Source: DHVE2 group archaeon (GTDB lineage: Archaea; Thermoplasmatota; Thermoplasmata; Thermoplasmatales; Aciduliprofundaceae). From it: a stretch of DNA of 64,000 nucleotides. The stretch spans positions 1 through 64,000 of the forward strand of contig JALWRZ010000004.1 of NCBI GenBank assembly GCA_026993785.1, written 5' to 3'. The position numbers and the translations under genes are program-made. Every line of letters starts with the position of its first letter. Position 1 is the first letter of the stretch. Positions 465-47,954 of this stretch are shown here, one piece after another. The notes under the pieces are model-generated. The model ran no database searches. It was not told the DNA's origin and saw nothing but the letters and a program-made list of their open reading frames with translations.

Positions 465-3400
465 TCACCATCCTAAACTCACGTGCCCTTCTTTCGTTAT
501 AATTTTTATTCCCATTATTTCTATATCTTCCGGCATCTCTCCACTCTCAGTAGACCATTTCAAATAATACTCCGGCAATATCTCTCCGTTTTTCGTGGAT
601 ATGAATCCCGTTCCCGTGTAGGGCCAGTGCCATCTATCCTCCACAATCTTATAATGCCCTTCTGGTGTAAATATCTTCGGATTATCGCTCGTTTTCAGCT
701 CGATTATCACCCTTCCATCCGAACTGCCCGGTATGCGCAGCTCATCCATCACTCCTTCCACGCTATCACTATGTATGTCTTCCACCCTGAATATCCCTCT
801 TCCACTTCCAAATTCCTTTTTTCCATTGTACTCCAGATCCTTCAGTATGTTCCTTATCCTCTCCAGTTTCTCCTCTTTGCTCAAACTCCCGTCTCTTAGT
901 ATGCTCTTTATCTTGTTTAGGGTTTTACTATCCATATGTACTACTCTTCCAAACCCTTCATTTAACGGCTTCTTCTCCAGTATCTTATTCCATACCTTCT
1001 CCAGCATCTCCTTTACCTCTTCGTTCCCTTCTATCGCTTTGCGCGGCAATATCGCATAGAGATACACCTCATCACTCTTGTAACCACTCTCCCTTATTGC
1101 ATCCAGTATATGTGTCTTCGTATTCTTCTCCACAAGTTCTTTCTTTACCGCACTAATGGCACTCTTTAAAGTGTTCTCAAAATCGCTCTTCTTTGCTTCA
1201 TCTCCAACTAACCTATACCCCTTCTTTGCATCCTCAATATATTTTTTCAACGCTGCTCTACTTCCAAATGCTTTTATTAAATCTTCATCGTGCTCAAGGC
1301 CGTCCAAATATTTGTAAAAACTCACATGCTCATCGAATATCTCTTTCTCTTTGCCAGTATCTCCACCGGTATATTCTTCTTTTACATCTTCAAGAGCTAA
1401 TTCTATATCCTCAGAATCTGTTCCATCTTCCAGCTTCTTTGCAATATCCTTTATCATATTTTCCTCCCTGCTCACGCCATCCTTCCCGAACCACTGAGCA
1501 ACACGGTTCATCAACTCCTTGGTTTTTTCGGACATCTTGCCACTCTGCACTAATTCCTTCACCGCAGCTTTCAGCGCAGAACTCTTCTCCATCAACTTGC
1601 CCAGCGCTAGGGATTTTGCATCCCTTAGCAAGCTTTTCATCTTCTCTATGGTATTCGCTATCTTCCCAAATGCCTCTGCTAATTTGCTACCGCTGCTGCC
1701 CAGCTTCTCAATGAATTTACTGAGCCCCGTGGGAAAACCATCGGGCTGAATGGCCATGGCTACCACAAAACCTATGATCTCGCCCACCACAAACATGTTG
1801 AAACACTGCTGCCGCACTTCGTTCCTCTTCGTCGCATCGCTTATGTAACTTACAAGCGTGTTCACCTTGCTCTCTATCTCTTCCTTTATTCCGTCCAGCA
1901 CCGCCGTTATCGTGTTCATTACCCCGTTGCTCTTCAGCGCATTGATGAACGATTTTATCCCCTCTATAAACTTACCCGGATCCTTCACTATATCTATAAG
2001 CCCGCCAATGCTGTTGCTCCATAGACTCTCACCCAGCGCCCAGCCCAACGCTATTAAAGGCGCCAAATCTGGATATTTGGAGATGAGATTCTTAACCGCA
2101 TTTATTATGGCTCCTGAAACAAATTTGCTTATCTTGTTCCAGATACTCTTTAGATCCGTGTAAAGATCGTGACTGTAGGAAAAGGTTACCCTGTTTCCAT
2201 TAACATCTGTCACTATAACCTCTATTTTATTTCCGGCAACATAATCCCAGATATCATCCTTAACACTGGTATTTATCCAGGCACGCGAGGCATATACAAA
2301 GAAATTCTTAGTCTCTCTCACCTTGGAGCCAACATAATATTTCACAGTTATCTGAGCAACGCGGGAATTATCCTCCACATACAGATTCTTGATCCACCAC
2401 CTGTGATTTGATGCGTAAATGTGCGGCACATCCATCTTCGGCTTCTCATCATCTTTTATCGTTGGATAATCATCAAAGCTATCGAGAAGACCATCACCAT
2501 CGGTATCCACGCTCCGGGGATCGGTATCCATGTTCCACTCCTCAAAATCCGTTAACCCGTCGCCATCAGTATCTTCCTTTCTCGGGTCTGAGCTTACCCA
2601 CTTACCTTCGCTCCAAACATACCAGCCATGCACCTCCTCATAATCTGTGAGAGCATCTCCATCTGTATCTGCCTTTATTGGTGATGTGCCTAGGCTTTTC
2701 TCTTCCCTGTAATCACTTAGCCCGTCTCCATCCGTATCTCCATTTTGGGGATCCGTCTCTTCCCATTCTTCCTTGTCGGTTAACCCATCTCCATCTGTAT
2801 CCCTCGAATGGGGATCTGAGGTTACGTGCTTCGTATGCTTCTTGCCCTCCGCATCATACCATTCAATATCCCAGCCTGCCTCTTCTGTAGAATCGTAAAG
2901 TCCATCTCCATCACTGTCCTGCTCACCACCACCGCCACTATCGGGAATCGGCGGACGATGCGCAATTATTCCACCAGAGCTTATGTTTCCAGTTGCAGGT
3001 ATATGTATGTCCACCGTATGTGGATGCGTTTTCTCCAGAAATTGCAGAACTCGATATACGTTCTTCTCTAACTCCCAGTTGAACCCAAACTCCTTCTCTC
3101 CGTCATTCCACCCTATTAGTATATCTTGTCCGTCCGCAAAGCTCCTGTTTCCCTCTATCGTGCCATTGTAGATGATGCGCCTTCCATGCCCATCCCTGTA
3201 GGGTGCCCGAGTCTCTCCACTTCCATTGTCTATTATCTCAAAATGCCTTAGTTTTACACCCTCGTAACACCACGTGAGCCGATACTCCGTTGCACCTCTT
3301 ATTTTTAGCTTTAGCTGCGGATATAACGGCTTGTATAGCTTGAAATGCTTCTTCTGCCTGAACTCCAGTATGCCTCTTATCTTCAAACCCTTCTCCTTGT

Positions 3401-3734
3401 GCCTTAGCTTTACCTTTACAATGTGCCACTTCTTCCAATCCTTCTCCTTTATCTTTACTTTAAAGCTTACATTCTTCCATATTTCCCCTTTCTTTATCTC
3501 TAACTTCACATATCCCTTCTCTATCAGTACCTTGCCACTCTTCGCATCTTTGATTACAAAACTCCCGTCATCCTTAATATCTAAAATTATGCGCCCATTA
3601 TTGAACTCCCTGCCCTTGAAATAACCTTTCTTTACTTTTAAATCCTTACCTTGAATAGTTCCCAAGAAAACTCCACTTAACAGTAGAACTACTAGAACCA
3701 ATACTGCTATTTTTGTTATTAGTCCCACCTTCAT
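465..3734 (-). CDS. Large secreted Ca-binding repeat protein, polymorphic toxin-like
   Basis: 1089 residues. Residues 1-28 are a signal peptide or membrane anchor (KIAVLVLVVLLLSGVFLGTI). Residues about 30-260 are a Lys-rich region that looks beta-rich. Residues about 273-425 hold six thrombospondin type 3-like Ca-binding repeats (DTDGDGLTD and variants) with ExxGW/DP spacers. A hydrophobic stretch follows (MFVVGEIIGFVVAMAI), then long charged helices. The last 100 residues contain VIIELKTSDNP near residue 1011, which fits the E-x-K part of a PD-(D/E)xK nuclease, with VMDELRI upstream as a possible Asp. A stalk of Ca repeats, a hydrophobic segment, helices and a C-terminal catalytic-looking tip is the usual layout of polymorphic toxins. 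The toxin role is inferred. The start has a GGGTGGGT site and a TATA-like TTAAATA at 3777-3784. Confidence 0.8.
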   Translation of the reverse strand: MKVGLITKIAVLVLVVLLLSGVFLGTIQGKDLKVKKGYFKGREFNNGRIILDIKDDGSFVIKDAKSGKVLIEKGYVKLEIKKGEIWKNVSFKVKIKEKDWKKWHIVKVKLRHKEKGLKIRGILEFRQKKHFKLYKPLYPQLKLKIRGATEYRLTWCYEGVKLRHFEIIDNGSGETRAPYRDGHGRRIIYNGTIEGNRSFADGQDILIGWNDGEKEFGFNWELEKNVYRVLQFLEKTHPHTVDIHIPATGNISSGGIIAHRPPIPDSGGGGEQDSDGDGLYDSTEEAGWDIEWYDAEGKKHTKHVTSDPHSRDTDGDGLTDKEEWEETDPQNGDTDGDGLSDYREEKSLGTSPIKADTDGDALTDYEEVHGWYVWSEGKWVSSDPRKEDTDGDGLTDFEEWNMDTDPRSVDTDGDGLLDSFDDYPTIKDDEKPKMDVPHIYASNHRWWIKNLYVEDNSRVAQITVKYYVGSKVRETKNFFVYASRAWINTSVKDDIWDYVAGNKIEVIVTDVNGNRVTFSYSHDLYTDLKSIWNKISKFVSGAIINAVKNLISKYPDLAPLIALGWALGESLWSNSIGGLIDIVKDPGKFIEGIKSFINALKSNGVMNTITAVLDGIKEEIESKVNTLVSYISDATKRNEVRQQCFNMFVVGEIIGFVVAMAIQPDGFPTGLSKFIEKLGSSGSKLAEAFGKIANTIEKMKSLLRDAKSLALGKLMEKSSALKAAVKELVQSGKMSEKTKELMNRVAQWFGKDGVSREENMIKDIAKKLEDGTDSEDIELALEDVKEEYTGGDTGKEKEIFDEHVSFYKYLDGLEHDEDLIKAFGSRAALKKYIEDAKKGYRLVGDEAKKSDFENTLKSAISAVKKELVEKNTKTHILDAIRESGYKSDEVYLYAILPRKAIEGNEEVKEMLEKVWNKILEKKPLNEGFGRVVHMDSKTLNKIKSILRDGSLSKEEKLERIRNILKDLEYNGKKEFGSGRGIFRVEDIHSDSVEGVMDELRIPGSSDGRVIIELKTSDNPKIFTPEGHYKIVEDRWHWPYTGTGFISTKNGEILPEYYLKWSTESGEMPEDIEIMGIKIITKEGHVSLGW

Positions 3735-12184: not shown

Positions 12185-12455
12185 TGGGAACCACCCGCGG
12201 GTTCCCAACGAAGGGGAACCGTAGGTGCCCCTTTCTAAACCCCTCCATTCTTTAAACAAGGAGTAAGGTATCTACGCAGCGCCCTGCTAACGCAGGGCTT
12301 GTTCGCAACTCGCTTTGCTCGTTTAGCCCTCTGCCGAGGGCAAGCTCGCATCTCAGATGCTCGTTCTCCCCTCTACCCTCCTCCCTTATCTTTAGGGGGT
12401 TTAGAAAGGGGGTGAAACCCCCTTCGAGGTTTAGAAAGGGGACGAAGCCCCCTTC
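12185..12455 (+). repeat. Hairpin-rich intergenic repeat element, long copy
   Basis: The element begins with the 23-base near-palindrome TGGGAACCACCCGCGGGTTC(CCA) at 12185-12207 and ends with a perfect 7-bp hairpin, AAGGGGG-TGAAA-CCCCCTT, at 12406-12424. A second, imperfect copy of that last unit follows at 12425-12454. The reverse complement of 45922-46008 carries the same two ends in the same order. This copy holds about 170 extra bases with further hairpins: GCCCTGC-TAAC-GCAGGGC (12281-12298), GCCCTC-TGCC-GAGGGC (12326-12341) and GCATCT-C-AGATGC (12348-12360). It has no coding frame. Confidence 0.75.
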
Positions 12456-12466
12456 TTATCGCAATT

Positions 12467-12476
12467 TTTATAATAT
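12467..12476 (+). promoter_or_regulatory. TATA box of the 12505 phosphoribosyltransferase
   Basis: TTTATAATAT is centred about 33 bases before ATG 12505, leaving a very short leader that contains the GGTGA site at 12496-12500. The box lies about 12 bases after the last hairpin of the repeat element. Confidence 0.6.
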
Positions 12477-12504: not shown

Positions 12505-13161
12505 ATGATAGAGAAATTCAGATGTCAGCTGGTGAAGTGGAAAGACATAGAATTCTGGTCCAAGGATATCGTTAAGAAGGTGGTTTCCAGTGGCTATGAG
12601 CCAGAGATTGTTATAGGTCTGGCCAGAGGCGGTTTGGTACCTGCCAGGTTGATATCCGATTATCTGAACATAAAAGATCTCTATGCGGTAAAAACAGAGC
12701 ACTGGGGGGTAACTGCAACTCCGGATGGCCAGGCCAAGCTCGCCCAGGGTTTGCAGGTGAGCATAGATGGGAAGAGGGTTCTTGTGATCGACGATATCAC
12801 AGATACTGGTCAGAGCTTGAGGCTCGCAGTGGAACATATAAAGGGACATAATCCCTCGGAGATAAGGAGTGCCACGCTTCTTCATATAACTCACTCTAAA
12901 TATGTTCCTGATTATTACTCTCAAGAGGTTCCGGAGGATCAGTGGACCTGGTTCATATTTCCCTGGAATGTTTACGAGGACCTCAGGAATCTGATACCTA
13001 AGACGCTTTACCGTCCCAAGGGAGTTATGGAAATAAAAAAATCGCTGAAGGAGCAGTTTGAAATAGATGTGAAGCTCCGCCTGATCAGCGAGATTCTGAG
13101 AGACCTTGAGAAGAGGGGTACTGTTAAAAAGAGAAACAAAAAATGGGAGTTGATAAAATGA
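12505..13161 (+). CDS. Phosphoribosyltransferase (purine salvage type)
   Basis: 218 residues from ATG 12505. This start is chosen because GGTGATGGT precedes it and the TATA box is just upstream; the longer frame would begin inside the repeat element. The PRPP-binding motif is VLVIDDITDTGQS (about residues 93-105), and IGLARGGLVPARLISDYL is the upstream loop. The C-terminal 50 residues form a short helical tail (SEILRDLEKRGTVKK) that looks like a small winged-helix piece, as in some archaeal hypoxanthine/xanthine phosphoribosyltransferases. It overlaps the next phosphoribosyltransferase by four bases. The base specificity cannot be told from sequence. Confidence 0.85.
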   Translation: MIEKFRCQLVKWKDIEFWSKDIVKKVVSSGYEPEIVIGLARGGLVPARLISDYLNIKDLYAVKTEHWGVTATPDGQAKLAQGLQVSIDGKRVLVIDDITDTGQSLRLAVEHIKGHNPSEIRSATLLHITHSKYVPDYYSQEVPEDQWTWFIFPWNVYEDLRNLIPKTLYRPKGVMEIKKSLKEQFEIDVKLRLISEILRDLEKRGTVKKRNKKWELIK

Positions 13162-32176: not shown

Positions 32177-32298
32177 AGCCACCGGGGGGATTCGAACCCC
32201 CGACCTGCTGATTTCTTGAAGCCCGCGGCTTTGGGGTAAAGCCCTTTTTTAAAGGGCTTTTACAAGTCAGCCGCTCTACCGGGCTAAGCTACGGTGGC
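32177..32298 (-). tRNA. tRNA-Thr (UGU) with a 48-base intron
   Basis: Minus strand. Exon 1 is 32261-32298 and exon 2 is about 32177-32212. Acceptor GCCACCG/CGGTGGC with discriminator T; anticodon stem GCTGA/TCAGC with loop CTTGTA-A, anticodon TGT. The intron (about 32213-32260) interrupts after base 37, the standard archaeal site, and contains two strong hairpins (AAAGCCC/GGGCTTT and AAGCCGCGGGCTT). TTTATAAG upstream near 32322-32332 is a likely TATA box. Confidence 0.9.
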
Positions 32299-32615: not shown

Positions 32616-32723
32616 TGCCGGGGCCGGGGTTCGAACCCGGGACCTTCGGATTTCTCAGGCTTGGAGGTGGAGAATATTTTTTCCCTATGAGTCCGACGCT
32701 CCACCAGGCTGAGCCACCCCGGC
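32616..32723 (-). tRNA. tRNA-Met (CAU, elongator-like) with a 34-base intron
   Basis: Minus strand. Exon 1 is 32686-32723 and exon 2 is 32616-32651. Acceptor GCCGGGG/CCCCGGC with discriminator A; anticodon stem TCGGA/TCCGA, loop CTCATA-A, anticodon CAT. The intron (32652-32685) follows base 37. The G1-C72 pair and G-rich acceptor fit an elongator tRNA-Met; tRNA-Ile2 with a modified CAU anticodon is less likely. The 5' end lies one base after the eS1 stop codon. Confidence 0.9.
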
Positions 32724-45235: not shown

Positions 45236-45499
45236 TCAAAGATTTTTCACCTTTCTCGCTATTTTTCTTATAACTTCATTTTTCGGTTCATCTGTCTCAA
45301 TTATAATTCTTCCCTTTTCCTTCCACCAGAAACGTGGGTATCTTTTATCCTCCTCCACCTCAAATTCATAACCTAGAGCCTTTGCTGCCTTAACTATGGT
45401 ATCCAATTTTGCCTCAAAAGCCAGGCTTTTTGGGACTCTACGCCCCTCCCTACGGGAGTAATGAACATTAAAATATGCAGGATAAATAATCACGCTCAT
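45236..45499 (-). CDS. srp19: Signal recognition particle 19 kDa protein
   Basis: 87 residues. [29 protein letters not shown] is the SRP19 signature, with the C-terminal [18 protein letters not shown] typical of archaeal SRP19. It binds 7S RNA and helps SRP54 assemble. Its ATG overlaps the eS8 stop by four bases, so the two are co-transcribed. Confidence 0.94.
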
Positions 45500-45876
45500 T
45501 CTACGAGCACTCCGTTGAGCACTCCATGCTGTCCAGGCCTAGAAGTTATTTTCACCTTACCAAGGGTTGTATTAACGATGGCCCCCTTTGTGATAATATT
45601 TCTCTGGGCAAAGTGGGGATTCGCGGGATTCTCCACTACCGTGAGAATCTTTGCCTTCTCCGTCTTTCCTGTTTTGGGGTTATATACATTTACCACATCA
45701 GCTCTTAAAAGCTTTACCTTATAGTTTCCGCCTCTAACACGAATGATCTTTCTCCTAACAGGAGCTATATGCGTGTATACTGGTTCCCTGCCAAGCTCGT
45801 ATCTCCTCTTCTTCCTAGCCATTCGTATTCTTCCACCACTAATCTTTCTTAGAGATCTTCCCTGCCATATGGCCAT
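45496..45876 (-). CDS. rps8e: Small-subunit ribosomal protein eS8
   Basis: 126 residues from ATG 45876, with GGTGATAAG immediately before; the frame opens earlier at 45897 without a site. It starts [18 protein letters not shown] and has [18 protein letters not shown] and [21 protein letters not shown], standard for archaeal eS8. A TATA box (TTTAAATATT, 45909-45918) lies upstream, about 10 bases beyond which the hairpin repeat element ends. Confidence 0.95.
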
Positions 45877-45921
45877 CTTATCACCTTGAAACCGCATATA
45901 TAGGTGTAATATTTAAACCTT

Positions 45922-46008
45922 CCCCACGAAGGGGGTTTCACCCCCTCTCTACACCCCCACGTGTTTGGTTGGTTGCAGGAGGGAATGGGAACCCGCTGGT
46001 GGTTCCCA
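45922..46008 (-). repeat. Hairpin-rich intergenic repeat element, short copy
   Basis: Read on the minus strand it begins with the 23-base near-palindrome TGGGAACCACCAGCGGGTTC(CCA) (46008-45986) and ends with the hairpin AGGGGGTGAAACCCCCT (45946-45930) plus CGTGG. The long copy at 12185-12455 has the same two ends in the same order. The hairpin end again lies about 10 bases upstream of a TATA box, here that of eS8-srp19. The middle is only about 40 bases and lacks the extra hairpins of the long copy. Confidence 0.72.
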
Positions 46009-46850: not shown

Positions 46851-47954
46851 GTGAGAACCATGGAGATATTGGATAGCACGCTCAGAGAAGGCGAGCAGAG
46901 TCCCGAGGTGAGCTTTACACCAGAGCAGCGATTAGAGCTTGCCATAGCTATAGACGAGTTAGGAGTGGAATTCATCGAAGCAGGGCACCCAGCAGTAAGC
47001 GAGGATGTATTTAAGGGTATAAAGAGTGTGGCATCTCAGGGATTGAACGCAAAAATACTGGCGCATTCCCGGGCAAGGAGAGAGGACATAGACCTTGTTT
47101 TGCGCACCGATGCATCGTGGATAGGAATATTTTTCTGCGTGTCTAATAGATGTCTATCCAAGAGATTTCACATAACTCTTGAAGAGGCGGTGGCGAGAGT
47201 TGTGGATTCTATAGATTATGCAAAATCTCATGGTCTGAAGGTTAGATTCACCCCCGAGGATACTACCAGAACAGAATGGGAGAATCTCGAGAAAGTAATA
47301 CAAGCTGCAGTGCAGGCTGGGGTGGACAGGATAAGCGTTGCCGACACTACTGGGGTGGCACATCCCTGGAGCTTCTATTCACTGGTTTCAAGACTTCGAG
47401 AATTTGGAGTTCCCCTGCATGTGCACTGCCACAACGACATGGGCCTAGCTCTGGCCAACGCCATAATGGGCATCGAAGCAGGTGCCATACTTGTGGATGC
47501 CACAGTAAACGGAATCGGTGAGAGAACAGGCATCGTTGATTTAGCGCAAATTACCACCATTGCCAATTACCACTACGGAAAGAACTACAACTTGGAGATG
47601 CTGCCACTCCTGAGCAAGAAGCTACAAGAAATCACGGGGTTGAGGATTGAGAAAAACAGGCCCATCGTGGGTGACTTTGCCTTTGTTCACAAGGCAGGTT
47701 TGCATGTGGCCGCCGTTATTCGTGACCCCTATTTCTACGAATTTCTACCTCCTGAGTTCTTCGGGAGAAACCGGGAGATATTTGTGGACAAATACGCAGG
47801 GAGAGCTTCTCTGGAGCACTATCTTCATCGAGTTGGAATAAGAAATGAGAAGGTGGTAGAAAAACTGCTTAGAAGGATAAAGAGCTCCAATATGGCCTAT
47901 ACCCCCGAGATGATTGTGGAAGAAGCCAAAAGAATAGAAAAGGAGGTGATGTGA
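46851..47954 (+). CDS. lysS: Homocitrate synthase (LysS-type)
   Basis: 367 residues. It condenses acetyl-CoA and 2-oxoglutarate to homocitrate, the first step of the alpha-aminoadipate lysine route. Seen are ILDSTLREGEQSPEVSFTPEQ, FTPEDTTRTEW, VHCHNDMGLALANAI, the lid-region NGIGERTGIVDLAQ, and HKAGLHVAAVI. The start is either GTG 46851, which lies at the predicted transcript start, or ATG 46860. It is the first gene of the LysW operon and implies that the carrier pathway makes lysine here. Isopropylmalate synthase-like activity is less likely given the neighbours. Confidence 0.9.
   Translation: MRTMEILDSTLREGEQSPEVSFTPEQRLELAIAIDELGVEFIEAGHPAVSEDVFKGIKSVASQGLNAKILAHSRARREDIDLVLRTDASWIGIFFCVSNRCLSKRFHITLEEAVARVVDSIDYAKSHGLKVRFTPEDTTRTEWENLEKVIQAAVQAGVDRISVADTTGVAHPWSFYSLVSRLREFGVPLHVHCHNDMGLALANAIMGIEAGAILVDATVNGIGERTGIVDLAQITTIANYHYGKNYNLEMLPLLSKKLQEITGLRIEKNRPIVGDFAFVHKAGLHVAAVIRDPYFYEFLPPEFFGRNREIFVDKYAGRASLEHYLHRVGIRNEKVVEKLLRRIKSSNMAYTPEMIVEEAKRIEKEVM

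Follow-up and report, generated by a model that had tools for sequence, protein, structure and literature searches.

Hairpin modules placed before promoters in a DHVE2 archaeon recur as predicted tRNA introns

The genome of a DHVE2 group archaeon from deep-sea vents (assembly GCA_026993785.1) carries about 48 intergenic copies of a patchwork hairpin element, nearly all set at a narrow distance before a gene's TATA box. The same hairpin modules are found as predicted introns within tRNA genes, which suggests that one family of small mobile sequences gives rise to both. The element is a polarised chain of modules in the order A-C-B-D, and a further module, E, is found mainly in tRNA genes. The genome is a draft of 1.66 Mb in 14 contigs (99.8% complete), and its relatives include DHVE2 (hydrothermal-vent archaea) MAGs. 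The stretch examined first, here called the window, comprises positions 1 to 64,000 of contig JALWRZ010000004.1 and contains two copies of the element. Below, G numbers denote genomes of relatives, C numbers contigs of this genome, and L numbers individual sequence stretches that were examined. G003 and G008 correspond to DHVE2 MAGs S014_41 and S013_21_esom through matching contigs, and G007 is possibly Aciduliprofundum boonei.

The two window copies were first recognised in a first-pass annotation, which described a shared 23-base near-palindrome at one end and a hairpin with a TGAAA loop (GGGGGTGAAACCCCC) at the other, in the same order, in inverted orientation to each other and with unequal middles. 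This observation is confirmed, as are the neighbouring genes (Table 1). One correction is required. The TGAAA hairpin, described as lying about 10 bases upstream of a TATA box in both copies, is terminal only in copy 2, where it ends 11 nt before the box. In copy 1 it is followed by another hairpin, which lies 12 nt before the box. Copy 1 contains all of the modules A, C, B and D, whereas the inverted copy 2 consists only of A, its tail and one D hairpin. Copy 1 folds with z = -5.57. A search of Rfam 15 returned only tRNAs in the window, and a phage or plasmid origin is rejected, as no similar record was found.

Table 1. Positions of element modules and neighbouring features in the 64,000-nt window
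Position	Strand	Feature	Sequence	Remarks
465..3734	-	Large ORF		Contains the tandem repeats of the next row
2539..2801		Tandem DNA repeats		Apparently encode DTDGDGLTD-type calcium-binding repeats; ordinary
12185..12207	+	Copy 1, A unit, 23-nt palindrome	TGGGAACCACCCGCGGGTTCCCA
12210..12235	+	Copy 1, small C-type hairpin	GAAGGGGAACCGTAGGTGCCCCTTTC	Same type of unit as the intron of a tRNA-Pro in sister genome G003 (L053)
12281..12298	+	Copy 1, C-module hairpin	GCCCTGCTAACGCAGGGC	First of the block 12281-12360
12326..12341	+	Copy 1, C-module hairpin	GCCCTCTGCCGAGGGC
12348..12360	+	Copy 1, C-module hairpin	GCATCTCAGATGC
12372..12405	+	Copy 1, B module	TCTACCCTCCTCCCTTATCTTTAGGGGGTTTAGA	27 instances of this type
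12406..12424	+	Copy 1, D hairpin with TGAAA loop	AAGGGGGTGAAACCCCCTT	Not terminal
12438..12452	+	Copy 1, terminal D hairpin	GGGGACGAAGCCCCC
12467..12474	+	TATA box of the phosphoribosyltransferase gene	TTTATAAT	Native, not part of the element
12505..13161	+	Phosphoribosyltransferase gene		PF00156
32177..32298	-	tRNA-Thr gene with intron		Missed by ARAGORN without the intron option
32213..32260	-	Intron of tRNA-Thr, E-type hairpin	AAAGCCCTTTAAAAAAGGGCTTTACCCC	Another member of the hairpin set
32616..32723	-	tRNA gene with intron		Different, AT-rich intron; missed by ARAGORN without the intron option
45496..45897	-	Ribosomal protein S8e gene
45910..45917	-	TATA box of the S8e gene	TTTAAATA	Native
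45928..45950	-	Copy 2, terminal D hairpin	AGAGAGGGGGTGAAACCCCCTTC	TGAAA loop
45971..46007	-	Copy 2, A palindrome plus tail	ATTCCCTCCTGCAACC type	89% identical over 37 nt to the intron of this genome's tRNA-Pro (C12:857-975)
45986..46008	-	Copy 2, A palindrome, inverted

A search of the whole genome returned 171 partial matches. The A palindrome, with up to 2 mismatches allowed, occurs at 51 places as compared with 1 for a reversed control, although two of the 51 (C3:77126 and C14:47922) look unrelated. The TGAAA-type hairpin occurs at 28 places as compared with 0 for its control, and the recurrence of both is far beyond chance. Grouping of these matches gave 48 loci, which share a fixed order of one to three A units, often about 39 nt apart and with the tail TTCCCTCCTGCAACC, followed by C, B and D. 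The C units fall into length classes of 28, 70-80 and 116-120 nt, as if pairs of hairpins had been added inside one outer hairpin. The D hairpins vary in their loops, but the base pair next to the G-run is C-G in 40 and T-A in 13 of 69, with few mixed pairs. An RNAalifold analysis of 13 C units gave only weak formal covariation (1 of 13 pairs), so the argument for structure rests on the fold z-score, the D closing pair and the discrete lengths of the C units. A third A-like variant (CTAGACACCTCCAGCGGGTTTCTAGTACTTCCAGCAACC), with a changed stem but a similar loop and tail, occurs at C1:26719, C6:358, C10:259564, C10:334830, C10:375843, C10:382434 and C14:93222.

The position of the element relative to genes also follows a rule. 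Based on gene starts from a simple codon-usage caller, the D side faces a gene start in 44 of 48 loci, and one of the remaining four faces a tRNA start (C3:46789, tRNA at 47246). The A side faces a start in 33. In gaps containing a single start, the D side faces it 13 times against 2, one of the 2 being a tRNA start on the D side. Measured from the last CCCCCTT, the best TATA-like octamer begins 10-13 nt downstream in 32 of the 37 copies in which one scored well. The distances at the A end are more scattered (3-28 nt). The downstream genes are varied and include tRNAs.

In relatives the same promoters are largely found without the element. The S8e promoter (TTTAAATATTAC...) is preceded by an element in this genome (A+D) and in G002, where the junction carries a different combination (E+D), but by none in G001, G003, G005, G007, G009, G011 and G013. 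The phosphoribosyltransferase promoter carries none in the seven relatives whose start could be read (G001, G002, G003, G006, G007, G009 and G013), and in G002 homology to this genome begins exactly where the D end stops. The TATA boxes are therefore native, and the possibility that the element carries its own promoter is rejected, since the TATA region is conserved in relatives without the element. However, the sister genomes are fragmented and complete two-flank empty sites are few; at both window promoters the upstream neighbours differ between species, and an empty site with both original flanks was not recovered there. In G001 the S8e gene is divergent from a neighbour 118 bp away with no element between, while in this genome the two genes are on different contigs and each has an element in front. 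Similarly, a G002 contig joins two genes that are far apart here, each next to an element. Elements thus mark rearrangement breakpoints. A stretch of about 1.5 kb in G008 (L035) is 92.7% identical to C7:183140-184630 (L136 3143-4631) although the genomes are of different genera; this is above the roughly 66-80% of most other shared genes and probably reflects recent horizontal transfer. This genome has an extra 118-bp hairpin unit nearby.

The unexpected result is that the same modules are found as introns in tRNA genes, located by ARAGORN with introns allowed in the anticodon loops of otherwise intact tRNAs; Rfam tRNA matches span many of them. The A unit is the predicted intron of this genome's tRNA-Pro, of G009 tRNA-Pro and of G013 and G001 tRNA-Gln, and also of a tRNA of G041. 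The tRNA-Pro intron of this genome is 94% identical over 35 nt to an intergenic copy. The C/B unit is the predicted intron of the G003 tRNA-Pro. A scan of 84,980 species genomes for the A core gave four places: two in DHVE2 MAGs and two in vent MAGs, in which the unit lies inside a tRNA-Ser (L159 2674-2820) or directly after a tRNA-Ser with the tRNA end repeated on the far side (L162 930-1065). The latter two are small vent archaeal genomes (about 0.7-0.8 Mb) of unknown placement, indicating possible transfer between lineages. Some isotype names are tentative, as they rest on anticodons read by eye or by ARAGORN. A bulge-helix-bulge at the exon-intron junction is seen in the free fold of pre-tRNA-Asp but is not clear in the others.

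Module E (AAGCCCCTTTNNAAAAGGTGCTTTACCCCC) occurs 49 times in 13 of 20 genomes, as compared with 0 for controls. Of 30 E loci read, 20 are placed by ARAGORN inside tRNAs of several types. The other 10 are intergenic, including chains with C and D modules in G001 and G002, sites directly after tRNA 3' ends (L251, L261), and one inside an A unit in G006 (L278). This nested copy is flanked by CTTTA repeats, and the uninterrupted A variant is common. In this genome E was found only in tRNAs, the intergenic copies being in relatives. Among 390 genomes of the phylum E was found in 8, five in this family and three in one other family. The latter (L308-L310, from G223, G176 and G076) are E-type tRNA introns, so E is not confined to this family.

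Based on these observations, it seems likely, though with only moderate confidence, that short (about 30-120 nt) hairpin modules, A, C/B, D and E, spread within this archaeal family as non-autonomous mobile DNA. In this view copies accumulate, singly or chained, just upstream of the BRE/TATA of a promoter, just after tRNA 3' ends, and in tRNA anticodon loops, where they persist as introns. At promoters the D end would dock 10-13 nt before the TATA box. In an anticodon loop the insert would be tolerated because a hairpin next to the anticodon can form the bulge-helix-bulge that the archaeal splicing endonuclease removes. Modules would insert into or beside each other, and recombination between copies would scramble modules and gene order. 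Several unrelated hairpin modules share the same three kinds of site, appear at new sites in sister species and nest in one another, which is how small mobile DNA behaves. The analysis itself establishes the copy number, the polarity, the TATA spacing, presence and absence between congeners, the identity of modules with tRNA introns and one nested insertion. That copying occurs by transposition, that promoters are targeted rather than merely tolerant, and that the introns are spliced out by the endonuclease are inferences from sequence. However, no candidate mobilising enzyme was identified, and the two ends are not inverted repeats of each other. Target duplications are seen in only two cases and differ in length (5 and 10 bp): CTTTA around E in L278, and CTCCCGGCGT at the tRNA-Ser 3' end in L162.

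An alternative, considered unlikely but not excluded, is that the G-rich D hairpin next to the BRE has a function at the promoter border, such as insulating the promoter from upstream or divergent transcription, fixing the edge of the initiation complex or absorbing supercoils, and that the host keeps and spreads it by gene conversion. The narrow TATA spacing and polarity, the occupation of the same junction by different modules in this genome and G002, and the concerted change of the D closing pair speak for this. The very tight D-to-TATA distance suggests either such a function or insertion guided by the TBP/TFB complex, since tolerance alone would give a wider spread. A border function is weakened by the absence of the element at the same promoters in most relatives, the lack of a common function among target genes, and the presence of the same modules inside tRNA introns and after tRNA genes, where this job does not apply. 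Somewhat less likely still is passive accumulation, in which hairpin-prone sequence is copied by replication slippage, template switching and recombination between repeats and survives only where insertion is harmless. Mosaic copies, tandem A units about 39 nt apart, and the extra 118-bp unit between direct repeats at C7:183988 as compared with L035 speak for this, and promoter borders and tRNA loops are the tolerant sites of a compact genome. However, this does not explain a 4-nt window of D-to-TATA distance, new positions in sister species, or the jump of A, C and E units into anticodon loops of different tRNAs.

Remnants or passengers of a known mobile family (REP/RAYT, IS200/IS605 or a MITE of a DDE transposase) are very unlikely. 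Small palindromic intergenic repeats of this copy number are typical of such families, and Y1 transposase genes (PF01797) occur once each in G002 and G003, but a profile search found none in this genome and no A, C, D or E motif flanks the Y1 genes of the sister genomes (L155-L158). The A end (TGGGAACC) and D end (CCCCCTTC) lack the inverted repeats of a MITE. The proposal of the first-pass annotation is partly supported. It suggested either a mobile or spreading element or a regulatory cassette placed before purine-salvage and ribosomal genes. The former is supported, together with a positional rule relative to TATA boxes, and the condition it set for its own refutation, only two copies with no such rule, does not hold. 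A cassette specific to those genes is not supported, as the downstream genes are varied and most relatives lack the element at both window promoters. The occurrence of the modules as tRNA introns was missed.

Among described systems, transposition of archaeal tRNA introns in Thermoproteales (reported by Fujishima et al. 2010, cited from PMC4090602) likewise involves near-identical introns in several unrelated tRNA genes, mostly at the canonical position after the anticodon. Here the same hairpins are also dispersed outside tRNA genes, in front of promoters and after tRNA 3' ends, in a different phylum, while the papers found describe transposition among tRNA genes only. Literature searches for DHVE2 tRNA introns and for dispersed copies of archaeal tRNA introns found nothing matching. 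Mitochondrial double-hairpin elements, GC clusters and repetitive hairpin-forming elements (PMC4478555, PMC2800124) are also short mobile hairpins without a gene of their own in intergenic DNA, but they are organellar, have no known promoter docking or link to spliced tRNA introns, and are unrelated in sequence as far as known. REP/BIME elements with RAYT transposases (PMC2817692, PMC3733652) share intergenic palindromes, many copies and mosaic arrays, whereas the present element is polarised, lies at a fixed distance to TATA and occurs in a genome in which no Y1/RAYT gene was found. In Caldiarchaeum, tRNA introns are also proposed to come from mobile elements (Sugahara et al. 2012, PMC3293823); there an integrase-bearing plasmid-like element supplies an intron with its att site, while here the inserted hairpin itself is the intron.

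A more far-reaching possibility, which remains tentative, is a new class of minimal mobile DNA whose insertion is guided by the promoter complex at one site and by the tRNA anticodon hairpin at another. It would generate both a promoter-border architecture and archaeal tRNA introns, so that the long-debated source of these introns would be a free-standing hairpin element. The fixed 10-13 nt distance to the TATA box also makes promoter-guided insertion, or a promoter-border function, testable in archaea. Where archaeal tRNA introns come from is debated, with intron-first views set against late gain (PMC4090602). In this one family the same hairpins lie as free intergenic repeats and as tRNA introns, with empty and filled sites between congeners, so gain can be followed directly in genomes.
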